DNA of 64,000 nucleotides from an uncultured Lachnospiraceae bacterium (GTDB taxonomy: Bacteria; Bacillota; Clostridia; Lachnospirales; Lachnospiraceae). Shown in pieces: positions 269 through 43,542 of the stretch. The notes under the pieces are model-generated. The model worked only from the letters and a program-made list of their open reading frames with translations. It was not told the DNA's origin and searched no databases. The stretch's first letter is position 1. Every line of letters starts with the position of its first letter. The translations under genes and the position numbers were made by a program. The stretch is from the NCBI GenBank assembly GCA_946405625.1, contig CAMJHQ010000005.1, forward strand, positions 1 through 64,000, written 5' to 3'.

Positions 269-1471
269 TTAGTAGCTGTCAACTGCGTCGTACATACTGA
301 GAATAGGTGAGTAGATTGCGATAACCATACCACCGACTACAACTGCGAGTACTACGATGATAAGTGGCTCCATCATAGCTGTGATAGCATCTGTTGCAAT
401 TTCAACTTCGTCTTCATAGAAGTCTGCAACCTTCTCCATCATATCTTCGATGTTACCTGTCTCTTCTCCGATATGCATCATCTGAGGAAGCATTACAGGG
501 AAGATATCCATGTCCTTAATCGGTTTTGAAAGAGGAACGCCTCGTGCAACCTGAACCTTGCACTCTCTCAGCTTGTCTCTTATAACCTTATTCTTGATAA
601 CTCCGGCAGTCTGATCAACAGCGTCGATCATTGAGATACCTGATGCAAGAAGTGTAGCAAATGTTCTTGCAAATGTAGCAGCAGCAGTCTTTACATTAAG
701 ATCACCGAAGATTGGCATTTTAATTGCTGCACTACCAAAGAAATCCTGACCTGCATCAGTTCTCTTGAAAACATTTATTCCTACAATAAGTGCAACAGCA
801 ATTGCAAGAACTATATACCACTTGGACACCATGAAGTTACTCATATTAACAAGTAACTGCGTGGCAGCCGGAAGCTTACTTCCCATTTCTTCGAACATTC
901 CCGCAAAGATAGGAATAACCGCTACAAGCATGATTATAACTACTACTAAAACTACGAGAAGTACGACTATCGGGTATGTCATGGCACCCTTGATCTTTGC
1001 TTCGATATGTCCATCCTTCTCAAACTGATTCGCAAGACGTTCAAAACATATTTCAAGCTTACCGGATGACTCACCGGCCTCAACCATGTTTGACATCATG
1101 TCCGGGAATACTTTTCTGTTAAGTCTGAATCCGTTAGCAAGCGTTCCACCCTTTTGAACGAAATTCATCGCAGCAACAGTAGCATCCTTGAGAGTCTCAT
1201 TCTCCATCTGCTGGCTCATCATATCCAATGAAGCTATGATTGGAACACCGGCTCTAAGCACTGATGCCATCTGCTTACAGAATACTGACAAGTCTCTGTT
1301 CTTAACTTTCTTAGGAATCTTAATCTCGATATCCTTGCTTTCGCCAAAGTCCTGGATTGTTAATCCTTCTGACTTAAGCTTCGCTCTAGCCTGATCCTCG
1401 TTATTGGCCTCGATTGTTCCTCTCTTGGCCTTACCGGTGGAATCAACGCCTTTGTACGCGTATTTAGCCAT
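269..1471 (-). CDS. pilC: Type IV pilus / type II secretion inner-membrane platform protein PilC
   Basis: This is a 400-residue GspF/PilC-family protein, the usual length. It has an N-terminal cytoplasmic domain, two repeated T2SSF domains (about residues 65-190 and 270-395) and hydrophobic segments near 170-195, 215-235 and at the C terminus (FEEMGSKLP between the repeats is typical). It forms the membrane platform on which the PilB and PilT motors act. RBS GGAGGAGTAGGAA directly precedes ATG at 1471. It lies between pilT (205 bases upstream) and a prepilin gene, so the group is a compact pilus operon. No pilM, pilN, pilO or prepilin peptidase gene is in this window. Confidence 0.95.
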   Translation of the reverse strand: MAKYAYKGVDSTGKAKRGTIEANNEDQARAKLKSEGLTIQDFGESKDIEIKIPKKVKNRDLSVFCKQMASVLRAGVPIIASLDMMSQQMENETLKDATVAAMNFVQKGGTLANGFRLNRKVFPDMMSNMVEAGESSGKLEICFERLANQFEKDGHIEAKIKGAMTYPIVVLLVVLVVVIIMLVAVIPIFAGMFEEMGSKLPAATQLLVNMSNFMVSKWYIVLAIAVALIVGINVFKRTDAGQDFFGSAAIKMPIFGDLNVKTAAATFARTFATLLASGISMIDAVDQTAGVIKNKVIRDKLRECKVQVARGVPLSKPIKDMDIFPVMLPQMMHIGEETGNIEDMMEKVADFYEDEVEIATDAITAMMEPLIIVVLAVVVGGMVIAIYSPILSMYDAVDSY

Positions 1472-1676
1472 TTCCTACTCCTCCGCCCATTTTTTACACA
1501 TTTTTTCATAACAGCCAATAATGCCGCAATGGCGCACTGCGACCTTATTAACATAATATCTTTTAAAATTTTACAACTTTTCACAAATTATTTCAACACT
1601 TTTGTGTATATTTTATTAGCGAATTATGAACAATTTATGAACAAGGTGTGTTTTTTCTATAGATTTTTATGTTCAT

Positions 1677-2732
1677 TTAGAACATATTCTTCTTCATTGA
1701 CAACTGATCCTGAGCATACATAAGAGCCATATCCTTTGTGATCTCGCCGTTTCTGTAAAGATCTATAAGTGCATCATCCATAGTTATCATACCGAGCTGC
1801 TTAGAAGTCTGAATTGTTGACTCAATCTGATGAGTCTTAGCTTCACGAATCTGAGCTCTGATAGCAGGTGTTGCAAGCATGACCTCGAAGGCTGCCCTAC
1901 GTCCATGTCCGTCAGATGTCGGAATAAGCTGCTGTGAGATAACTCCTTCGATAACCATCGCAAGCTGAATACGTATCTGCTGCTGCTGATGAGGTGGGAA
2001 TACGTCGATGATACGATCCACAGTAGCAGCTGCACCGATTGTATGCAGTGTTGAGAAAACCAAGTGTCCTGTCTCAGCAGCAGTGATAGCTATCTGAATT
2101 GTTTCAGGATCACGCATCTCTCCTACGAGGATAATATCCGGATCCTCACGGAGCGCTGCACGAAGAGCATTATCAAAGGAAAGTGTATCCATACCAAGCT
2201 CTCTCTGGTTAACTATCGATTTCTTATGTTTATGAATGTACTCTATAGGATCCTCAAGTGTGATTATATGAGTACTTATATTCTCGTTAGCTTTATTAAG
2301 AATAGAAGCAAGTGTTGTTGATTTACCTGATCCTGTAGGTCCTGTAACAAGAACAAGTCCTCTCTTCTTCTTATAAAGTTCAACAACTGAAGGTGGAAGA
2401 CCGAGCTGCTCCGGCTTAGGAATTATAGTATCAATCTTTCGGTAAGCAGCAGCCATATTACCTCTGTCCATGTAAACGTTTACACGGAAACGTCCCTTAT
2501 CTCCGACAGAGTATGCAAAGTCGCATTCACCTCTGTCCTTAAGGATAGCCTTCTGTCTCTCGTTCATGGTCATTCCGATACTTTCTGCAGCATCTGTAGC
2601 TGAAAGAGGTGGTACATCAACCTCCTTGAGCTGACCATGTATTCTGAACTTTGGCGGTATTCCAACCGCAAGGTGTACGTCCGATGCATTCTCATCAACT
2701 GCAAGGCTGAGGAGCTCGTCCATATCTATCAT
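1677..2732 (-). CDS. pilT: Type IV pilus retraction ATPase PilT
   Basis: A 351-residue secretion ATPase of PilT length. Walker A GPTGSGKS is at 131-138, the AIRNLIRE-like motif at 189-196 (ALRAALRE), the Walker B region DPDIILVGEMRD near 198-208 and the His box TGHLVFSTLHT near 221-231. It would power pilus retraction, and hence twitching or DNA uptake, at the PilC platform. The gene lies 42 bases after pilB and probably shares its promoter. Start choice is between the listed ATG and an in-frame ATG three codons later, which sits better relative to AAGG. The difference does not affect function. Confidence 0.96.
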   Translation of the reverse strand: MIDMDELLSLAVDENASDVHLAVGIPPKFRIHGQLKEVDVPPLSATDAAESIGMTMNERQKAILKDRGECDFAYSVGDKGRFRVNVYMDRGNMAAAYRKIDTIIPKPEQLGLPPSVVELYKKKRGLVLVTGPTGSGKSTTLASILNKANENISTHIITLEDPIEYIHKHKKSIVNQRELGMDTLSFDNALRAALREDPDIILVGEMRDPETIQIAITAAETGHLVFSTLHTIGAAATVDRIIDVFPPHQQQQIRIQLAMVIEGVISQQLIPTSDGHGRRAAFEVMLATPAIRAQIREAKTHQIESTIQTSKQLGMITMDDALIDLYRNGEITKDMALMYAQDQLSMKKNMF

Positions 2733-2774
2733 ACCTTATTACCCCCGTTTCTAAATTTTTATTACCATCCGGTC

Positions 2775-4490
2775 TTAATATTGATCGCCGGTTGTGTAAA
2801 CTATTTTCTTCATTTCCGCAAGAGATGTTGTTCCCTTTAGTACATGTCTTGCAGCAGACATCTTGAGCGTTGACATTCCTTCTTCAAGTGCCTGTTTTTC
2901 AATTACATCTGCATTCGCACCTCTGGCGATTATAGCTTGCAGTGATTTTGAAACCGGCATCATTTCATAAACACCGATTCGACCCGAATAACCTGTATCG
3001 TTACAAAGTGGACATCCGTCCGGCTCATAGATAACAACATCTTCATCCGGATCTTCAACACCGAGGATTTTCTTTTCATCTTCGTCAGCAAGTCTCGGAA
3101 TCCTGCATGATGTACAGAGCCTTCTTACAAGTCTCTGGGCAATAACTCCTACCAGAGCGTCTCCCGCAACGTACGGCTCAATACCCATATCAATGATACG
3201 TGTAACTGTTGAAGCCGCTGAGTTTGTATGGAGTGTTGAAACAACAAGGTGTCCTGTGATAGCCGCCTGAACCGCTATCTTCGCCGTCTCGCCGTCTCGG
3301 ATCTCTCCTATCATTATTATATCAGGGTCCTGACGAAGGATAGATCTGAGCGCTGCAGCGAATGTCATCTCTGCTTTAACATTAACCTGAACCTGATTGA
3401 TTCCGTTGATGTTAGCCTCGACAGGGTCCTCAACTGTTATGATATTAACCTCTTCTTTGTTAAGCTCTGAAAGAGATGTATAAAGAGTTGTTGATTTACC
3501 TGATCCGGTAGGTCCCGTAACAAGAATGATTCCGTGAGGGTTACTGAGTATTCCGTCGAATATTTCAATTTCTTCAGGTGTGAATCCAAGTCCTGACTTA
3601 GGCTTTGTAAGTCCATCCTTGGAAGTAAGTCTCATAACCGTCTTCTCACCGTGAACCGTAGGAAGAACGGAAACACGGACATCAAACTCTCTTCTGTCTA
3701 CATTGATCGTAATACGACCATCCTGAGGTTTTCTCTTCTCGGCGATATCCATACCACCGATGATCTTGATACGTGCACTGATGGCCGGCAGAATCGCAAG
3801 CTCATAATTCATTACTTCCTTAAGTGCACCATCGATACGATATCTTACTCGTACCTTATTTTCCAAAGCTTCTATATGAATATCGGATGCCCTCTGTCTG
3901 ACACCGCCTTCAATAATCTGATTAACAAGCATTACGATAGGGGAATTATCGATCTCAGCCTGAGCCTCATCGTCTTCCATCTGCAGAAGTCCCGCATTCT
4001 CAGCCTTGTATGCTTCAGCAGCTTCCATAGCCTGAGCACTTCCGTAATACTTTCCTATAACTTCTCCGAGATCATCGTCAAAGGAAAGCATAGGTTCAAC
4101 CTGGAGTCCGGATGATATACTGATATCATCGACTGCAGTCAGATCCATAGGATCCGCCATAGCAACCTTGAGGATGTTCGGATTATTTTCGTCGAAACAT
4201 ACCGGAACCGCTCTATACTTAGCAACCAGGTTATCCGGTATCAGATTCAGAACCGCTTCATCTATCTGAACAGATCTTATCTCGCAGTACTCGATACCCA
4301 TCTGAGTAGTAAGAACCGTAATGAGGAGTTCCTTCGAGATAAAGCCCATCGACATTATAACATTACCGATTCGGCCTCCGTCCTCTTTCTGTTTTTCCAA
4401 AGCCTGTTGGAGCTGATCCTCTGTAATAGCTCCCGCTTCAACGAGGAGATCACCAACTCTGATTCTTTTTCTTGCACCCGCTACATGCAT
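2775..4490 (-). CDS. pilB: Type IV pilus assembly ATPase PilB with MshEN-like N-terminal domain
   Basis: A 571-residue GspE/PilB extension motor. Walker A GPTGSGKS is at 326-333, Walker B DPDIIMIGEIRD at 388-399 and the His box at 412-422. The zinc-binding cysteines come as two CxxC pairs near 459/462 and 493/496. Residues about 9-63 hold two successive copies of the pattern R-[IV]-G..L/I...G.I....L...L..Q (first R11-V-G to Q34, second R40-I-G to Q63). This is the arrangement of MshEN domains that bind cyclic di-GMP in MshE-type ATPases. RBS AGAGG lies 8 bases before the ATG. It heads the pilus operon. c-di-GMP binding is inferred from the motif pattern only. Confidence 0.96.
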   Translation of the reverse strand: MHVAGARKRIRVGDLLVEAGAITEDQLQQALEKQKEDGGRIGNVIMSMGFISKELLITVLTTQMGIEYCEIRSVQIDEAVLNLIPDNLVAKYRAVPVCFDENNPNILKVAMADPMDLTAVDDISISSGLQVEPMLSFDDDLGEVIGKYYGSAQAMEAAEAYKAENAGLLQMEDDEAQAEIDNSPIVMLVNQIIEGGVRQRASDIHIEALENKVRVRYRIDGALKEVMNYELAILPAISARIKIIGGMDIAEKRKPQDGRITINVDRREFDVRVSVLPTVHGEKTVMRLTSKDGLTKPKSGLGFTPEEIEIFDGILSNPHGIILVTGPTGSGKSTTLYTSLSELNKEEVNIITVEDPVEANINGINQVQVNVKAEMTFAAALRSILRQDPDIIMIGEIRDGETAKIAVQAAITGHLVVSTLHTNSAASTVTRIIDMGIEPYVAGDALVGVIAQRLVRRLCTSCRIPRLADEDEKKILGVEDPDEDVVIYEPDGCPLCNDTGYSGRIGVYEMMPVSKSLQAIIARGANADVIEKQALEEGMSTLKMSAARHVLKGTTSLAEMKKIVYTTGDQY

Positions 4491-39463: not shown

Positions 39464-40339
39464 TTACTCAATGTTCTGCACTTGTTCTCTAACCTTTTCG
39501 ATGAGAGTTTTCAGCTCAATTCCGATATCGGTAACTTCCTTGGTATCAGACTTAGAAAGCGTTGTATTAGCCTCTCTGTTCATTTCCTGAACAATAAAGT
39601 CAAGCTTTCTTCCTGCTGCCTTATCCTCACCGAGGATATCTCTTACAGCCTGAATATGGCTTCTGAGTCTTACAAGTTCTTCATCAACAGCCACCTTATC
39701 GGCGTAAATGATAACCTCCTGAACTATACGAGCATCATCTATATCCCTGAGTTCAAGAATATCATTAACCTTAGCTGTAAGCTTTTCTTTATATTCTTCG
39801 ACAATTCCCGGAACAAGCTCTTCAATCCTGTTTACAAGAACTTCGATCTCATCCATTTTATCAAGCAGATCCTTCGCGAGATTCTCGCCTTCCTTCTGCC
39901 TTGATTCCATAAAGTTTTTTCCTGCCTCATCAAAAACCTTCTGGATATCCGTATACTCTTCGTCCTCAGCGCTGTAGTTTTCTTCTAATGAAAACACATC
40001 AGGAAAACGAGCAATTACCGTAGGCTTATAATCTTCTTCCAGACCGAAATCTTCAGCTATCTGCTTCAGATAATTCATATATTCCGAAGCGATCTCCTTA
40101 TTGTACTTTACGGTTTCGCTGGTCTTAAGATTCTGATATGTTACAAAAACATCGATCTTTCCGCGCTCAGCATAAAGTTTAAGTCTCTTCCTTATCTCCG
40201 GCTCAAATCTGCTTATTGAGCGAGGAAGCTTAACACTTACATCAAGATATCTGTGATTAACAGATTTCATTTCAATGATGATCTTCTTTTCATCATCAAT
40301 AAATTCGCTTCTACCGAATCCAGTCATACTGCAAATCAT
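39464..40339 (-). CDS. yicC: YicC family endoribonuclease-like protein
   Basis: A 291-residue YicC/YloC protein at full length: SMTGFGRSEF at the N terminus, VNHRYLDVSVKLPR, and C-terminal KLDFIVQEMNREANTTLSKS followed by ELKTLIEKVREQVQNIE. Family members have recently been tied to endoribonuclease activity. First gene of the yicC-gmk-rpoZ-murE run, with AGGGG before the ATG. The 248 bases upstream hold the pilin terminator and nothing else recognised. Confidence 0.93.
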   Translation of the reverse strand: MICSMTGFGRSEFIDDEKKIIIEMKSVNHRYLDVSVKLPRSISRFEPEIRKRLKLYAERGKIDVFVTYQNLKTSETVKYNKEIASEYMNYLKQIAEDFGLEEDYKPTVIARFPDVFSLEENYSAEDEEYTDIQKVFDEAGKNFMESRQKEGENLAKDLLDKMDEIEVLVNRIEELVPGIVEEYKEKLTAKVNDILELRDIDDARIVQEVIIYADKVAVDEELVRLRSHIQAVRDILGEDKAAGRKLDFIVQEMNREANTTLSKSDTKEVTDIGIELKTLIEKVREQVQNIE

Positions 40340-40531: not shown

Positions 40532-40553
40532 GGCGGCAGCCGAAGCTGCCGCC
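40532..40553 (-). terminator. Terminator hairpin of the riboswitch-controlled pilin gene
   Basis: Perfect 9-base GC-rich stem GGCGGCAGC / GCTGCCGCC with a 4-base loop, 35 bases after the pilin stop. On the minus strand it is followed by TTTGTC. Confidence 0.8.
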
Positions 40554-40587: not shown

Positions 40588-41364
40588 TTATCTGCTGTAT
40601 TCTGCACATGGATTAGGATGAAGCCTGTACAGCGGGCGAACCGGATTATGAGGATCCTTATATCCGGCCCAGATTTCACAAGCGCCATTGTCATCTCGTC
40701 TGTAGATGCACCAGCATTCAGGAATCTTCTCCTCATTTCCGCCTGCATAAAGCGAGGTCTTCGTTTCGGCCGAAGGAGCCTGCAGCTTCGATGCCTTCCT
40801 GCACTTAAAGAATACATATCCGTTATCCTCTCCATCATAGGTGCGGTTGCCGTTATCATAACCGCCTACCGCCCTATCCTGACACAGATTGATAAGGAAT
40901 TCATCAGTATAAGCTCTCTGACTTTCAGCTGCAGGATCAACACCATCCATAGCAGCTTTAAACAATGAATTCTCCCATGCTCCACCGTAATTTCCGTCAT
41001 GTCTTATACCTCTGCACCATGAAACAAGTCTTATGGAATATACTCCTGTACCCGACGTTGTATTTGCCTGATGGCCGTCATTTGTTACAAAAGTTCTTCC
41101 CGACCTGTTGTCACTTACAGTTGCGATAACTGCCCATCCGGCTGCCGCTTCATCGCTGGATGTAGCTGCCGCAAGATGTGCAGCTTCATAAAGCATCTGT
41201 GCATCCTGAATATCTACAGCCTTTCTTGACTTATCGATATATCTGATAAGCGCAGGTGCTATCACAGCTGCAAGGATTGCCATGATTGCAATAACTATAA
41301 TAAGCTCAACAAGAGAAAAACCACTATTCAATTTTCTATATTCATTTCTATTCATTTTTCTCAT
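40588..41364 (-). CDS. Type IV pilin controlled by a c-di-GMP riboswitch
   Basis: A 258-residue prepilin. A 15-residue basic leader ends in Gly before FSLVE; cleavage is expected between Gly15 and Phe16. A hydrophobic helix follows (about 16-45), then a globular domain rich in Gly/Asn/Asp with five cysteines after the helix, ending in PNPCAEYSR. The helix segment is nearly identical to that of the pilin at 1-139, so both are probably used by the PilB/PilC machine. The gene stands alone between rqcH and yicC, with its own promoter, riboswitch and terminator. RBS AGGGG lies 8 bases before ATG 41364. Adhesin, major or minor role is unknown. Confidence 0.93.
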   Translation of the reverse strand: MRKMNRNEYRKLNSGFSLVELIIVIAIMAILAAVIAPALIRYIDKSRKAVDIQDAQMLYEAAHLAAATSSDEAAAGWAVIATVSDNRSGRTFVTNDGHQANTTSGTGVYSIRLVSWCRGIRHDGNYGGAWENSLFKAAMDGVDPAAESQRAYTDEFLINLCQDRAVGGYDNGNRTYDGEDNGYVFFKCRKASKLQAPSAETKTSLYAGGNEEKIPECWCIYRRDDNGACEIWAGYKDPHNPVRPLYRLHPNPCAEYSR

Positions 41365-41429
41365 ACAATCAACCCCTGTCTTTTTAAAATTTGCATCATA
41401 TCTTTTTCATGCTCTCTCACCTTCATAAA

Positions 41430-41464
41430 AACGAAAAGATGCCTTGTCTACAGACAAAGCATCT
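41430..41464 (-). terminator. Intrinsic terminator in the pilin leader (riboswitch expression platform)
   Basis: On the minus strand AGATGCTTTGTCT and AGACAAGGCATCT form a near-perfect 13-base stem with a tiny loop, followed by TTTTCGTTTTT. It lies between the c-di-GMP aptamer and the pilin ATG. Its 5' arm (GCTTTGTC) is also complementary to GGCAAAGC in the aptamer, which suggests a switch between two pairings. Confidence 0.88.
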
Positions 41465-41496
41465 TACTTGATTCCTATAACTCCATTCAGTCTTTT

Positions 41497-41577
41497 TATT
41501 CGTGCAGCTGGCTATCATGTAAATATTTAGACCCTATAGCTTTGCGTCACAGCGTTTCCCCTGCTTTGCCTGTTATC
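41497..41577 (-). promoter_or_regulatory. Cyclic di-GMP-I (GEMM-I) riboswitch aptamer
   Basis: On the minus strand the conserved core is plain: GGCAAAGC, a GGGAAAC tetraloop hairpin, GTGACGCAAAGCTATAGGG, TCTAA, and then the closing ATGATAGCCAGCTGC. This order and wording is the class I c-di-GMP aptamer. It is followed about 35 bases later by a terminator and then by a pilin gene. Confidence 0.93.
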
Positions 41578-41634
41578 ATTTTAAAATTGTAATAATATAA
41601 CAAATGATTTTGTACATATTTAACAACTACATAC

Positions 41635-41663
41635 ATAATAGCCTATATTTAGACGAAAATCAA
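41635..41663 (-). promoter_or_regulatory. Promoter for the riboswitch-pilin transcript
   Basis: On the minus strand TTGATT (41663-41658) and TATTAT (41640-41635) are separated by 17 bases, about 60 bases upstream of the aptamer. The rest of the gap to the rqcH stop at 41785 is very AT-rich with no other feature seen. Confidence 0.55.
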
Positions 41664-41784
41664 CCGTTTTTTTAATAAAAAATGAATGAATTATGAATAT
41701 TTTATGAACACACCGTATATTTTTTATGAATATATTAAATAGTCTAGAAATTTTATTATAAAAACAATATTTTTACTATATTTT

Positions 41785-43542
41785 TTATTCCGCCGTTTTG
41801 ATGTCATCAATGTTCTTCTCAACAACAACCGAATAATTCGTATGATAAATTACATATCCGAGATTCGCAGCCGGCGGTTTTTTAAGATTTTTCCTTTCCG
41901 TATAATCAATTTCAACCTTGCTGCTTTCAACAGATGAGTAAAATGCAGCAAGCCTCGCCGCCTCAAGATAAGTAGCATCAGGTATTTCCTCGTCTCTGTT
42001 TCTTCTCACGATAACATGAGACCCCGGAGCCTTCTTCGCATGAAACCACATATCATTTGCTCCAGCCAGACGGAATGTCAGTTCATCATTCTGAATATTA
42101 TTCTTTCCAACATAGATATCAAAGCCGTTCGAAGATATGAAATGAAGCGGTTTTCCCTTTGCTTCACGTCTCTGTCCCTTCTTACTCTTATCAAGAACTC
42201 TTTCCGCTGCACTTCCTCTTAAGAAGCCCGAACCGATGAGTTCTCTTCTTATTTCCGCTATGTCAGTTTCATCCGACGCTATATCAAGTGACAGCTGTAC
42301 ACTCTTAAGATATTCAAGTTCCGCCTCAGAATCCGAAAGTTGCTGAACCAGTGCCGCAGCAGTCCTCTTCTTCTTATTATATTTTTCAAAATATTTCTTG
42401 CTGGCTTCTCTTGCATCACAATTTTCCGGAATCGGGATCTTAACTTCTTTATTATCATCATAATAATTCATACATACAAGCTCAGCAGCCCCCGGTTCGA
42501 GCGAATAACCATATGTATTAAGAAGTTCTCCATATATCCTGTACTTTTCCCTATCCTCGGTATCCTTCATCTGGTTTCTCTGAAGATCAAGTTTCTTCGC
42601 CGTTCTTTCAACAGCCTGTGCAACCACATGCCTGAGCTCTGTCGTCTTCTGCTTAATCCTCACTTTATCATTCTTCATCTGATAGAAGCGTTTCAGCATA
42701 TCCGAAACCGAATCGCAGCCTACCGCCTCAAATCCTCTGTACACCTCAAAAGGGACAACACTGTAATCTTTCGGTACATCATTTTCCAGATAAATGTACG
42801 GCTTACTCTCTTCTGTCAAAAGCTTACGAAGTGAATCATAAAGCTTACATTTATCTGATTCACTGAGTTCTTCGGAGTTTGCTCCACCGTCAATTCCGGC
42901 TCTTTCACATATCTCATTTGCCGTGACAGTCGCAATACCGTTAAGCGATGTGCTGATCAGCTTTGAAACAACTCCGGGCTTTCCGAGCACATTTTCGACA
43001 AACATCTTCTCGTCTGTCTCTCTCGGATCACTCTTATCCGGTGACTTCGGTGTCTCATACTGCATTCCCGGAAGCACCTGTCTCACTGAACTGACGTCCA
43101 GCGGAATTCTCTTTATGGAATCCAGGATTTTTCCCGAATCATCCACAAAAATGATATTGCTGTGCCTTCCCATAAGCTCAACTATGAGACGCTTCTGTCT
43201 TACATCTCCCATTTCATCAAGGTGTTCTACATGAATTTCAATGATTCTGTCAAACCCCGGCTGGATTATATCCTTGATCCTTCCGTTCCCTATATGCTTT
43301 CTGAGCAGCATGCAGAAATTCGGAGCAGTCATCGGAGCCGCCTTCAGAGTATCAGTCAGATAAACAAGCGGAAGACTCGGATTAACCGACATCATCAGTT
43401 TGAGATTATTATCCTTTCCGTTTTTAATGACCATATCAATTTCGTCTGCTTCTGTCTGCTGAATCTTATTGATCCTGCCACCCACAGCTCTTTCGCGGAG
43501 TTCCCTGACCACCGCATTTATTGTATATCCGTCAAATGCCAT
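41785..43542 (-). CDS. rqcH: NFACT-family ribosome quality control protein RqcH
   Basis: A 585-residue protein with the NFACT-N (FpgN-like) domain starting AFDGYTINAVVRELRERAVGGRINKIQQ, helix-hairpin and coiled-coil parts (about 270-440, including PYIYLENDVPKDYSVVPFE before it) and the C-terminal NFACT-R domain (FISSNGFDIYVGKNNIQNDEL, then DMWFHAKKAPGSHVIVR). RqcH binds stalled 50S-peptidyl-tRNA complexes and adds Ala tails. Older annotation calls it a fibronectin-binding protein. It is a single gene after the glgA terminator. Confidence 0.95.
   Translation of the reverse strand: MAFDGYTINAVVRELRERAVGGRINKIQQTEADEIDMVIKNGKDNNLKLMMSVNPSLPLVYLTDTLKAAPMTAPNFCMLLRKHIGNGRIKDIIQPGFDRIIEIHVEHLDEMGDVRQKRLIVELMGRHSNIIFVDDSGKILDSIKRIPLDVSSVRQVLPGMQYETPKSPDKSDPRETDEKMFVENVLGKPGVVSKLISTSLNGIATVTANEICERAGIDGGANSEELSESDKCKLYDSLRKLLTEESKPYIYLENDVPKDYSVVPFEVYRGFEAVGCDSVSDMLKRFYQMKNDKVRIKQKTTELRHVVAQAVERTAKKLDLQRNQMKDTEDREKYRIYGELLNTYGYSLEPGAAELVCMNYYDDNKEVKIPIPENCDAREASKKYFEKYNKKKRTAAALVQQLSDSEAELEYLKSVQLSLDIASDETDIAEIRRELIGSGFLRGSAAERVLDKSKKGQRREAKGKPLHFISSNGFDIYVGKNNIQNDELTFRLAGANDMWFHAKKAPGSHVIVRRNRDEEIPDATYLEAARLAAFYSSVESSKVEIDYTERKNLKKPPAANLGYVIYHTNYSVVVEKNIDDIKTAE

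Follow-up and report, generated by a model that had tools for sequence, protein, structure and literature searches.

Organization of the Pilin Locus

The window, that is, the whole stretch of 64,000 nucleotides analyzed here from an uncultured Lachnospiraceae bacterium (GCA_946405625.1, contig CAMJHQ010000005.1), carries on its minus strand a promoter, a GEMM-I aptamer core, an intrinsic terminator, and a prepilin gene in this order (Table 1), which confirms the arrangement that had been read from the letters alone in the initial annotation. The N-terminus of the encoded protein matches the N_methyl family PF07963 with 30.9 bits (cut-off, 21.2) and TIGR02532 with 27.8 bits (cut-off, 16.3), and comparison with solved pilins also gave N-terminal matches (best E-value, 5.9e-5). 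A prepilin cleavage/methylation motif is followed by a long hydrophobic helix, the hallmark of type IV pilins, and the gene product presumably functions as such. The tiny ORF MKKI, which is preceded by the purine-rich sequence GGTGAGAGAG, is positioned between the terminator and the pilin start.

Table 1. Features in and around the leader of the pilin gene (window coordinates).
Feature	Position	Strand	Basis
Three 11-bp-phased repeats, GTTCATAAAAT / ATTCATAATTC / ATTCATTTTTT, immediately 5′ of the -35 element	41677..41709	-	
Putative promoter TTGATT-17-TATTAT	41635..41663	-	Consensus scan; similar elements ahead of the aptamer in G026 and G021
c-di-GMP-I (GEMM-I) aptamer; model position 11 (41570) is G	41500..41580	-	RF01051, 60.4 bits
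Predicted antiterminator strand 1, ACAGGCAAAGCA, aptamer 5′ side including pocket bases GGC	41562..41573	-	Complementarity
Predicted antiterminator strand 2, TGCTTTGTCTGT, from the upper part of the terminator 5′ arm and three loop bases	41450..41461	-	Complementarity
Intrinsic terminator, 13-bp hairpin (41465-41436) and TTCGTTTTT tract	41427..41465	-	Terminator scan
Tiny ORF, ATG AAA AAG ATA TGA (four codons, MKKI)	41396..41410	-	Read from the sequence
Type IV prepilin, 258 aa (GFSLVELIIVIAIMAIL)	40588..41364	-	Profile matches
GC-rich hairpin, then TTTG, 3′ of the pilin gene	40532..40553	-	Like the hairpin in relative L005

The pilin gene is flanked by a gene for an NFACT protein (41785-43542), which we take to be rqcH, and by yicC (39464-40339). 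The order rqcH, pilin, yicC is retained in the related genome G026; rqcH-pilin is retained in G021, the contig of which stops within the pilin gene, and pilin-yicC in G062, where the similarity of the pilin is limited to approximately 60 N-terminal residues. The hairpin downstream of the pilin gene, which has a short T tract and is absent from the list produced by the terminator scan, probably marks the end of the transcript. Since both this hairpin and a separate yicC promoter recur in L005 (apparently the same contig as G026), the pilin gene probably forms a monocistronic transcript of its own. The description of the pilin gene as “lone” therefore probably holds for the transcription unit but not for the neighborhood, in which pilC, pilT, and pilB are encoded at 269-4490 on the minus strand, 36-40 kb from the pilin gene. 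Another pilin start is located at 14-160 and reaches the contig edge.

The promoter fits 9 of the 12 consensus positions in a scan whose yield was at chance level (4 promoters found vs. 5.2 in shuffled sequences). The corresponding elements are TTGACA-17-TACAAT 5′ of the aptamer in the leader of G026 and TTGCAT-17-TAAGAT in that of G021. The promoter of the window is presumably used, with a transcription start estimated to lie near 41630. The repeats ahead of it may possibly constitute a binding array for a regulator: the pattern RTTCAYN5RTTCAYN5RTT is unique to this site within the 3.3 Mb assembly, (G/A)TTCAT repeats occur in the same phase in the orthologue G021, and comparable arrays precede some further pilin leaders in the genus. 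The excess of repeats upstream of pilin leaders (p = 1e-6; 29 vs. 130 leaders) is partly circular, the consensus having been picked post hoc. The 11-bp repeats presumably resemble a phosphate-type (PHO) box; an identity with this element was dropped, as the pattern has no other match in the genome, which argues against a large regulon.

The Aptamer and Its Ligand

The class I aptamer proposed in the initial annotation was compared with the Rfam covariance models, and a match to c-di-GMP-I was obtained over the full model (positions 1-87; 60.4 bits against a gathering score of 35; E-value, 2.5e-9), the sole Rfam match of the window at gathering thresholds. The consensus core is present, including GGCAAA and GACGCAAA, a GAAA loop, CUAA and AUGA, and the 3′ strand AGCC..GCUGC, motifs that we take to provide the pocket and the tetraloop receptor; toward the 3′ end of the aptamer, A takes the place of one consensus C. 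As judged from its sequence, the aptamer is a typical representative of the known family RF01051 and would be expected to bind c-di-GMP.

In the cGAMP type of this aptamer (GEMM-Ib), the G of the selectivity position is replaced by A. In the window, model position 11, which presumably corresponds to G11 of the Clostridioides difficile switch Cd1, is occupied by G, as it is in three orthologues and in 107 of the 160 aptamers surveyed in the genus (the others being 49 A, 3 C, and 1 T). Another cyclic dinucleotide such as 3′,3′-cGAMP, which is reported to be bound by GEMM-Ib variants (PMC8835794, PMC6456294), is thus a highly improbable ligand of this switch, even though the A form is found elsewhere in the genus, five pilin leaders included. 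In these five leaders, the A form could mean a different ligand preference.

The genome itself contains four c-di-GMP-I aptamers, 32 GGDEF matches (31 above the cut-off), and 10 EAL matches. Another of its aptamers (L067; G000:C3, 138329-138412, minus strand) precedes a 438-aa ORF that includes a GGDEF match, and a feedback loop may exist here. The PilB protein encoded in the window (2775-4490) contains the MshE-type c-di-GMP motif NF053729 (64.9 bits; cut-off, 38) and MshEN PF05157, and motifs of this kind bind c-di-GMP in MshE of Vibrio cholerae (PMC5013675). To judge from these domain matches, c-di-GMP may act on the pilus twice, through the riboswitch and through the PilB motif.

A Helix Predicted to Compete with the Terminator

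The terminator (-17.2 kcal/mol) is a hairpin of 13 pairs with a loop of 4 and is followed by TTCGTTTTT, a T tract broken by CG. It begins 34 nt past the aptamer match, and the two do not overlap. In the initial annotation, an antiterminator had been sought in a complementarity of 8 pairs, one of them G-U, between GCTTTGTC in the terminator 5′ arm and GGCAAAGC in the aptamer. This complementarity is real, but its length was underestimated: ACAGGCAAAGCA and TGCTTTGTCTGT form 12 contiguous pairs, including one G-U, and the final three fall in the terminator loop. Because 8 contiguous pairs with one G-U are reached by 408 of 5000 shuffled arms, the shorter helix was rejected as proof and the 12-pair helix was substituted; this length is not reached by any of 5000 shuffled arms or by any of 4986 random 18-mers drawn from the window, and among 5000 dinucleotide-shuffled aptamers it is attained by 6. 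The duplex has a calculated energy of -17.6 kcal/mol (z = -3.3 vs. dinucleotide-shuffled arms), and in ensemble calculations the pairing of the arm with the aptamer amounts to 0.76 for the 5′ arm, compared with 0.30 for shuffled arms and 0.14 for the leader's own 3′ arm.

Folding with ViennaRNA, in which nearest-neighbor energies exclude tertiary contacts and the ligand, assigns 64% of the window ensemble to the antiterminator before the 3′ arm has been transcribed; the corresponding share is 0.52-0.93 in all seven leaders that were picked for 5′-strand pairing. Once the whole hairpin has been made, the terminator state is favored over the antiterminator by 5.1 or 6.6 kcal/mol in the window (two calculations) and by 1.6-12.7 kcal/mol in three orthologues, and the two states differ little in stability, or the antiterminator is favored, in G008, G012, and G023. 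Because the full terminator prevails at equilibrium, OFF function, that is, read-through in the ligand-free state, would require kinetic trapping of the antiterminator. The antiterminator of Cd1 is likewise described as transiently stable (PMC9262584).

Conservation of the Leader in Orthologues

Four orthologous leaders were compared, namely those of the window, G026, G021, and G062, with G026 and G062 being closely alike. All four share the same terminator 5′ arm, TGCTTTGTCT, and the spacer, loop, and 3′ arm vary; retention of the 5′ arm while the 3′ arm drifts is as expected if a second partner exists for the 5′ arm. The pairs of the antiterminator are intact in 95.8% of cells, compared with 31-53% in slid registers, with the structure having been derived from one of the sequences, which favors the slid-register control; terminator pairs are kept in 86.5% of cells. 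In the orthologues, the helix is 12 (G026), 11 (G062), and 9 pairs long (G021). Against shuffled sequences, the arms of the orthologues score more weakly than that of the window (z = -1.5 for G026, -1.8 for G062, and -1.0 for G021), and 1-2 of 15 shuffles score as high in the ensemble test. Two antiterminator pairs are changed on both sides, both at terminator-loop bases that have no terminator partner. This covariation in four sequences is equaled by 55 of 500 shuffles and is not significant, and hence was set aside as evidence by itself. The comparison with relatives that the initial annotation had suggested thus bears out the constancy of the arm and the maintenance of the pairing, but not covariation.

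A similar relationship was observed in three of the five pilin leaders that carry A at position 11: in G008, G012, and G023, the aptamer sequence TTTAGCAA is matched by the arm TTGCTAAA through 8 pairs and a further stretch. In the remaining A-type pilin leaders, those of G004 and G068, a matching terminator arm is absent.

These data bear on the proposal that the terminator acts independently of the ligand as a fixed attenuator and that the complementarity is a relic. Such decoupling would agree with the 5-7 kcal/mol by which the modeled terminator exceeds the antiterminator in stability, and in C. difficile 5 of 12 class I riboswitches are reported to have no detectable downstream coding sequence and perhaps to be non-functional (PMC6200980). 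The retention of the 5′ arm in the four orthologous leaders despite the drifting 3′ arm, together with an antiterminator that occupies more than half of the ensemble prior to synthesis of the 3′ arm, argues against it, and we consider it unlikely.

Survey of Leaders in the Genus

A c-di-GMP-I match, in one case below the curated cut-off, was found in 53 of the 61 genus genomes (32 of 37 and 21 of 24, the search of the 37 genomes having used stricter filters than that of the 24). This survey yielded 166 matches (94 and 72), for which 160 leaders were fetched, two of them identical (G019); G063:C142, G074:C270, G078:C25, G082:C51, G082:C239, and G084:C31 were left out. Thirty of the 160 leaders, from 28 genomes, are located within 700 nt upstream of a pilin motif. 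When 36 pilin homologues, including that of the window, were fetched instead, 18 were preceded on the same strand by a GEMM core at a distance of no more than 1.6 kb, no upstream GEMM core was found for 15 (a few with truncated flanks), and 3 were at contig edges; none of the 36 has a GEMM core on the opposite strand. A search for class II c-di-GMP switches gave no match in the 61 genomes, with the positive controls being equally silent.

A terminator was identified within 260 nt in 148 of the 160 leaders, and the 141 in which it starts within 100 nt were used for arm-pairing tests. In the ensemble test, pairing of the 5′ arm with the aptamer is 0.55 across the genus, compared with 0.37 for shuffled arms and 0.54 for 3′ arms (5′ vs. 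3′, p = 0.42). In the duplex test, 5′ arms perform better than 3′ arms (p = 1e-4), with a mean z of -1.02 and 22.7% of the 141 leaders at or below the 5% shuffle level. A genus-wide rule by which 5′ arms pair with the aptamer has support in the comparison with shuffled arms but is not claimed, given the value reached by 3′ arms in the ensemble test. In 11 non-pilin leaders that were picked by pattern (within L071-L207), an arm GCG(T/C)C(A/G)C is complementary to the strand G(T/C)GACGC of the pocket, with agreement at the variable base in all 11 (8 A with T and 3 G with C). The 160 leaders, in which one aptamer is linked to terminators through several aptamer strands, offer a natural series for the evolution of expression platforms around a fixed aptamer.

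The 160 leaders were also scanned for terminators that begin inside the aptamer 3′ strand. The best terminator is separate from the aptamer in 142 leaders, overlapping in 7, and absent in 11; among the 30 pilin leaders, it is separate in 29 and absent in 1. Four of the overlapping terminators belong to G082 (L191, L193, L194, and L203), where they start inside the aptamer 3′ strand (GGTTGCAA or GGTCGCAA) and extend approximately 4 nt into it, which corresponds to the layout of an ON switch; the remaining three overlaps seem doubtful.

Direction of the Switch

The anatomy of the leader bears most directly on whether c-di-GMP would stop or permit transcription of the pilin gene. In an ON switch, c-di-GMP would prevent termination, comparable to cGAMP at pilM of Geobacter or c-di-GMP at the class II switch of pilA1 in C. 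difficile. Precedents are described in the literature: type IV pilus gene expression is raised by c-di-GMP in C. difficile and Bc2 of Bacillus thuringiensis is a class I ON switch (PMC6366702), and Cdi1_1 of C. difficile precedes a gene that is raised by c-di-GMP (PMC3649979, PMC6200980). At pilM, however, the aptamer and the terminator are mutually exclusive (PMC9262584), whereas the terminator of the window stands clear of the aptamer, and no overlapping alternative was found there by the scan that picks up overlaps in 7 of the 160 leaders, including the four in G082. The ON reading was set aside on this ground and is improbable.

The reading that we favor, with a probability of about 0.8, is that of a transcriptional OFF riboswitch that would control one type IV pilin gene, probably as a monocistronic unit. 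This direction, which had been put forward in the initial annotation, is a prediction and is supported as the best reading by the non-overlapping terminator, the 12-pair helix on the 5′ pocket strand, and the retention of the arm while its 3′ partner drifts. In both the sequence and the model, the leader combines a terminator that is compatible with the aptamer and a helix that would sequester the pocket together with the terminator 5′ arm, as in an OFF switch of the Cd1 kind. In the absence of the ligand, nucleotides 41461-41450 of the terminator 5′ arm and loop would pair, on emerging from polymerase, with the aptamer 5′ strand (41573-41562); the resulting 12-bp antiterminator would hide the pocket bases GGC and block the terminator hairpin, and the pilin gene would be transcribed. 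If c-di-GMP is bound first, the 5′ strand would be locked in the aptamer and the 5′ arm would remain free to form the 13-bp terminator, causing transcription to stop before the pilin gene. In this scheme, the family match of the aptamer, the separate terminator, the complementarity over 12 bp, and the constancy of the arm are observed, and ligand binding, the co-transcriptional order, and the direction and size of the response are inferred.

An OFF switch of this kind would conflict with the usual rule linking c-di-GMP to pili, as had been pointed out in the initial annotation. A pilin gene under a predicted class I OFF switch opposes the best-studied pilus case, the class II ON switch of pilA1. 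One tentative proposal, which we hold to be more doubtful than probable, is that c-di-GMP chooses between pilins. It could drive the pilus motor through the MshEN-type PilB and would turn this particular pilin off, so that the composition of the pilus rather than its amount would change; across the genus, a different aptamer strand would serve as the antiterminator partner each time (5′ GGCAAAGC, 3′ GUGACGC, P3, or the 3′ closing strand). If the OFF reading is true, c-di-GMP would not simply raise type IV pili, particular pilins would be lowered in many species of the genus, and the question of which pilin is made, and when, would become testable by simple transcription assays.

Comparison with Known Systems

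Class I switches of C. difficile are reported to be OFF switches and class II switches to be ON switches, with pilA1 being under the control of a class II ON switch (PMC6366702, PMC6200980, PMC11477304, PMC3649979). The pilA1 switch, Cdi-2-4 (PMC6366702, PMC6200980), resembles the window in that a c-di-GMP riboswitch and a terminator precede a clostridial type IV pilin gene, but its aptamer is of class II and it is an ON switch, whereas that of the window is of class I and predicted to be OFF. The GEMM-I switch of pilM in Geobacter metallireducens (PMC9262584) shares a GEMM-I aptamer ahead of pilus genes and transcriptional control; it differs in its cGAMP ligand, its ON direction, and its aptamer-excluding terminator, of which no counterpart was found in the window. 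Bc1 and Bc2 of B. thuringiensis (PMC11218506, PMC6366702) are likewise class I switches of a Gram-positive organism that act through transcription termination, but Bc2 is an ON switch that controls a collagen adhesin (PMC6366702). Among the hits examined in searches of openly licensed PMC papers, none describes a pilin under the control of a class I OFF switch.

A close likeness is seen with Cd1 (Cdi-1-3), which precedes the flgB operon of C. difficile (PMC9262584, PMC6366702) and in which a class I aptamer is followed by a coexisting terminator and an antiterminator that destroys the pocket. In the ON switch of pilM, the aptamer and the terminator exclude each other, whereas in Cd1 the two coexist and compete with the antiterminator (PMC9262584); the OFF logic common to Cd1 and the window has been measured for the former and is predicted for the latter. 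The two differ in their targets, since Cd1 controls flagella and the switch of the window precedes a pilin gene, and in their antiterminators: that of Cd1 is formed by a switching strand and the 3′ (A) strand of the aptamer (G86, C87), whereas that predicted for the window involves GGC, the pocket bases of the 5′ strand, and hence represents a variant expression platform. Overall, a class I aptamer that is predicted to act as an OFF switch on a pilin through a putative antiterminator on the 5′ pocket strand constitutes a variant arrangement.
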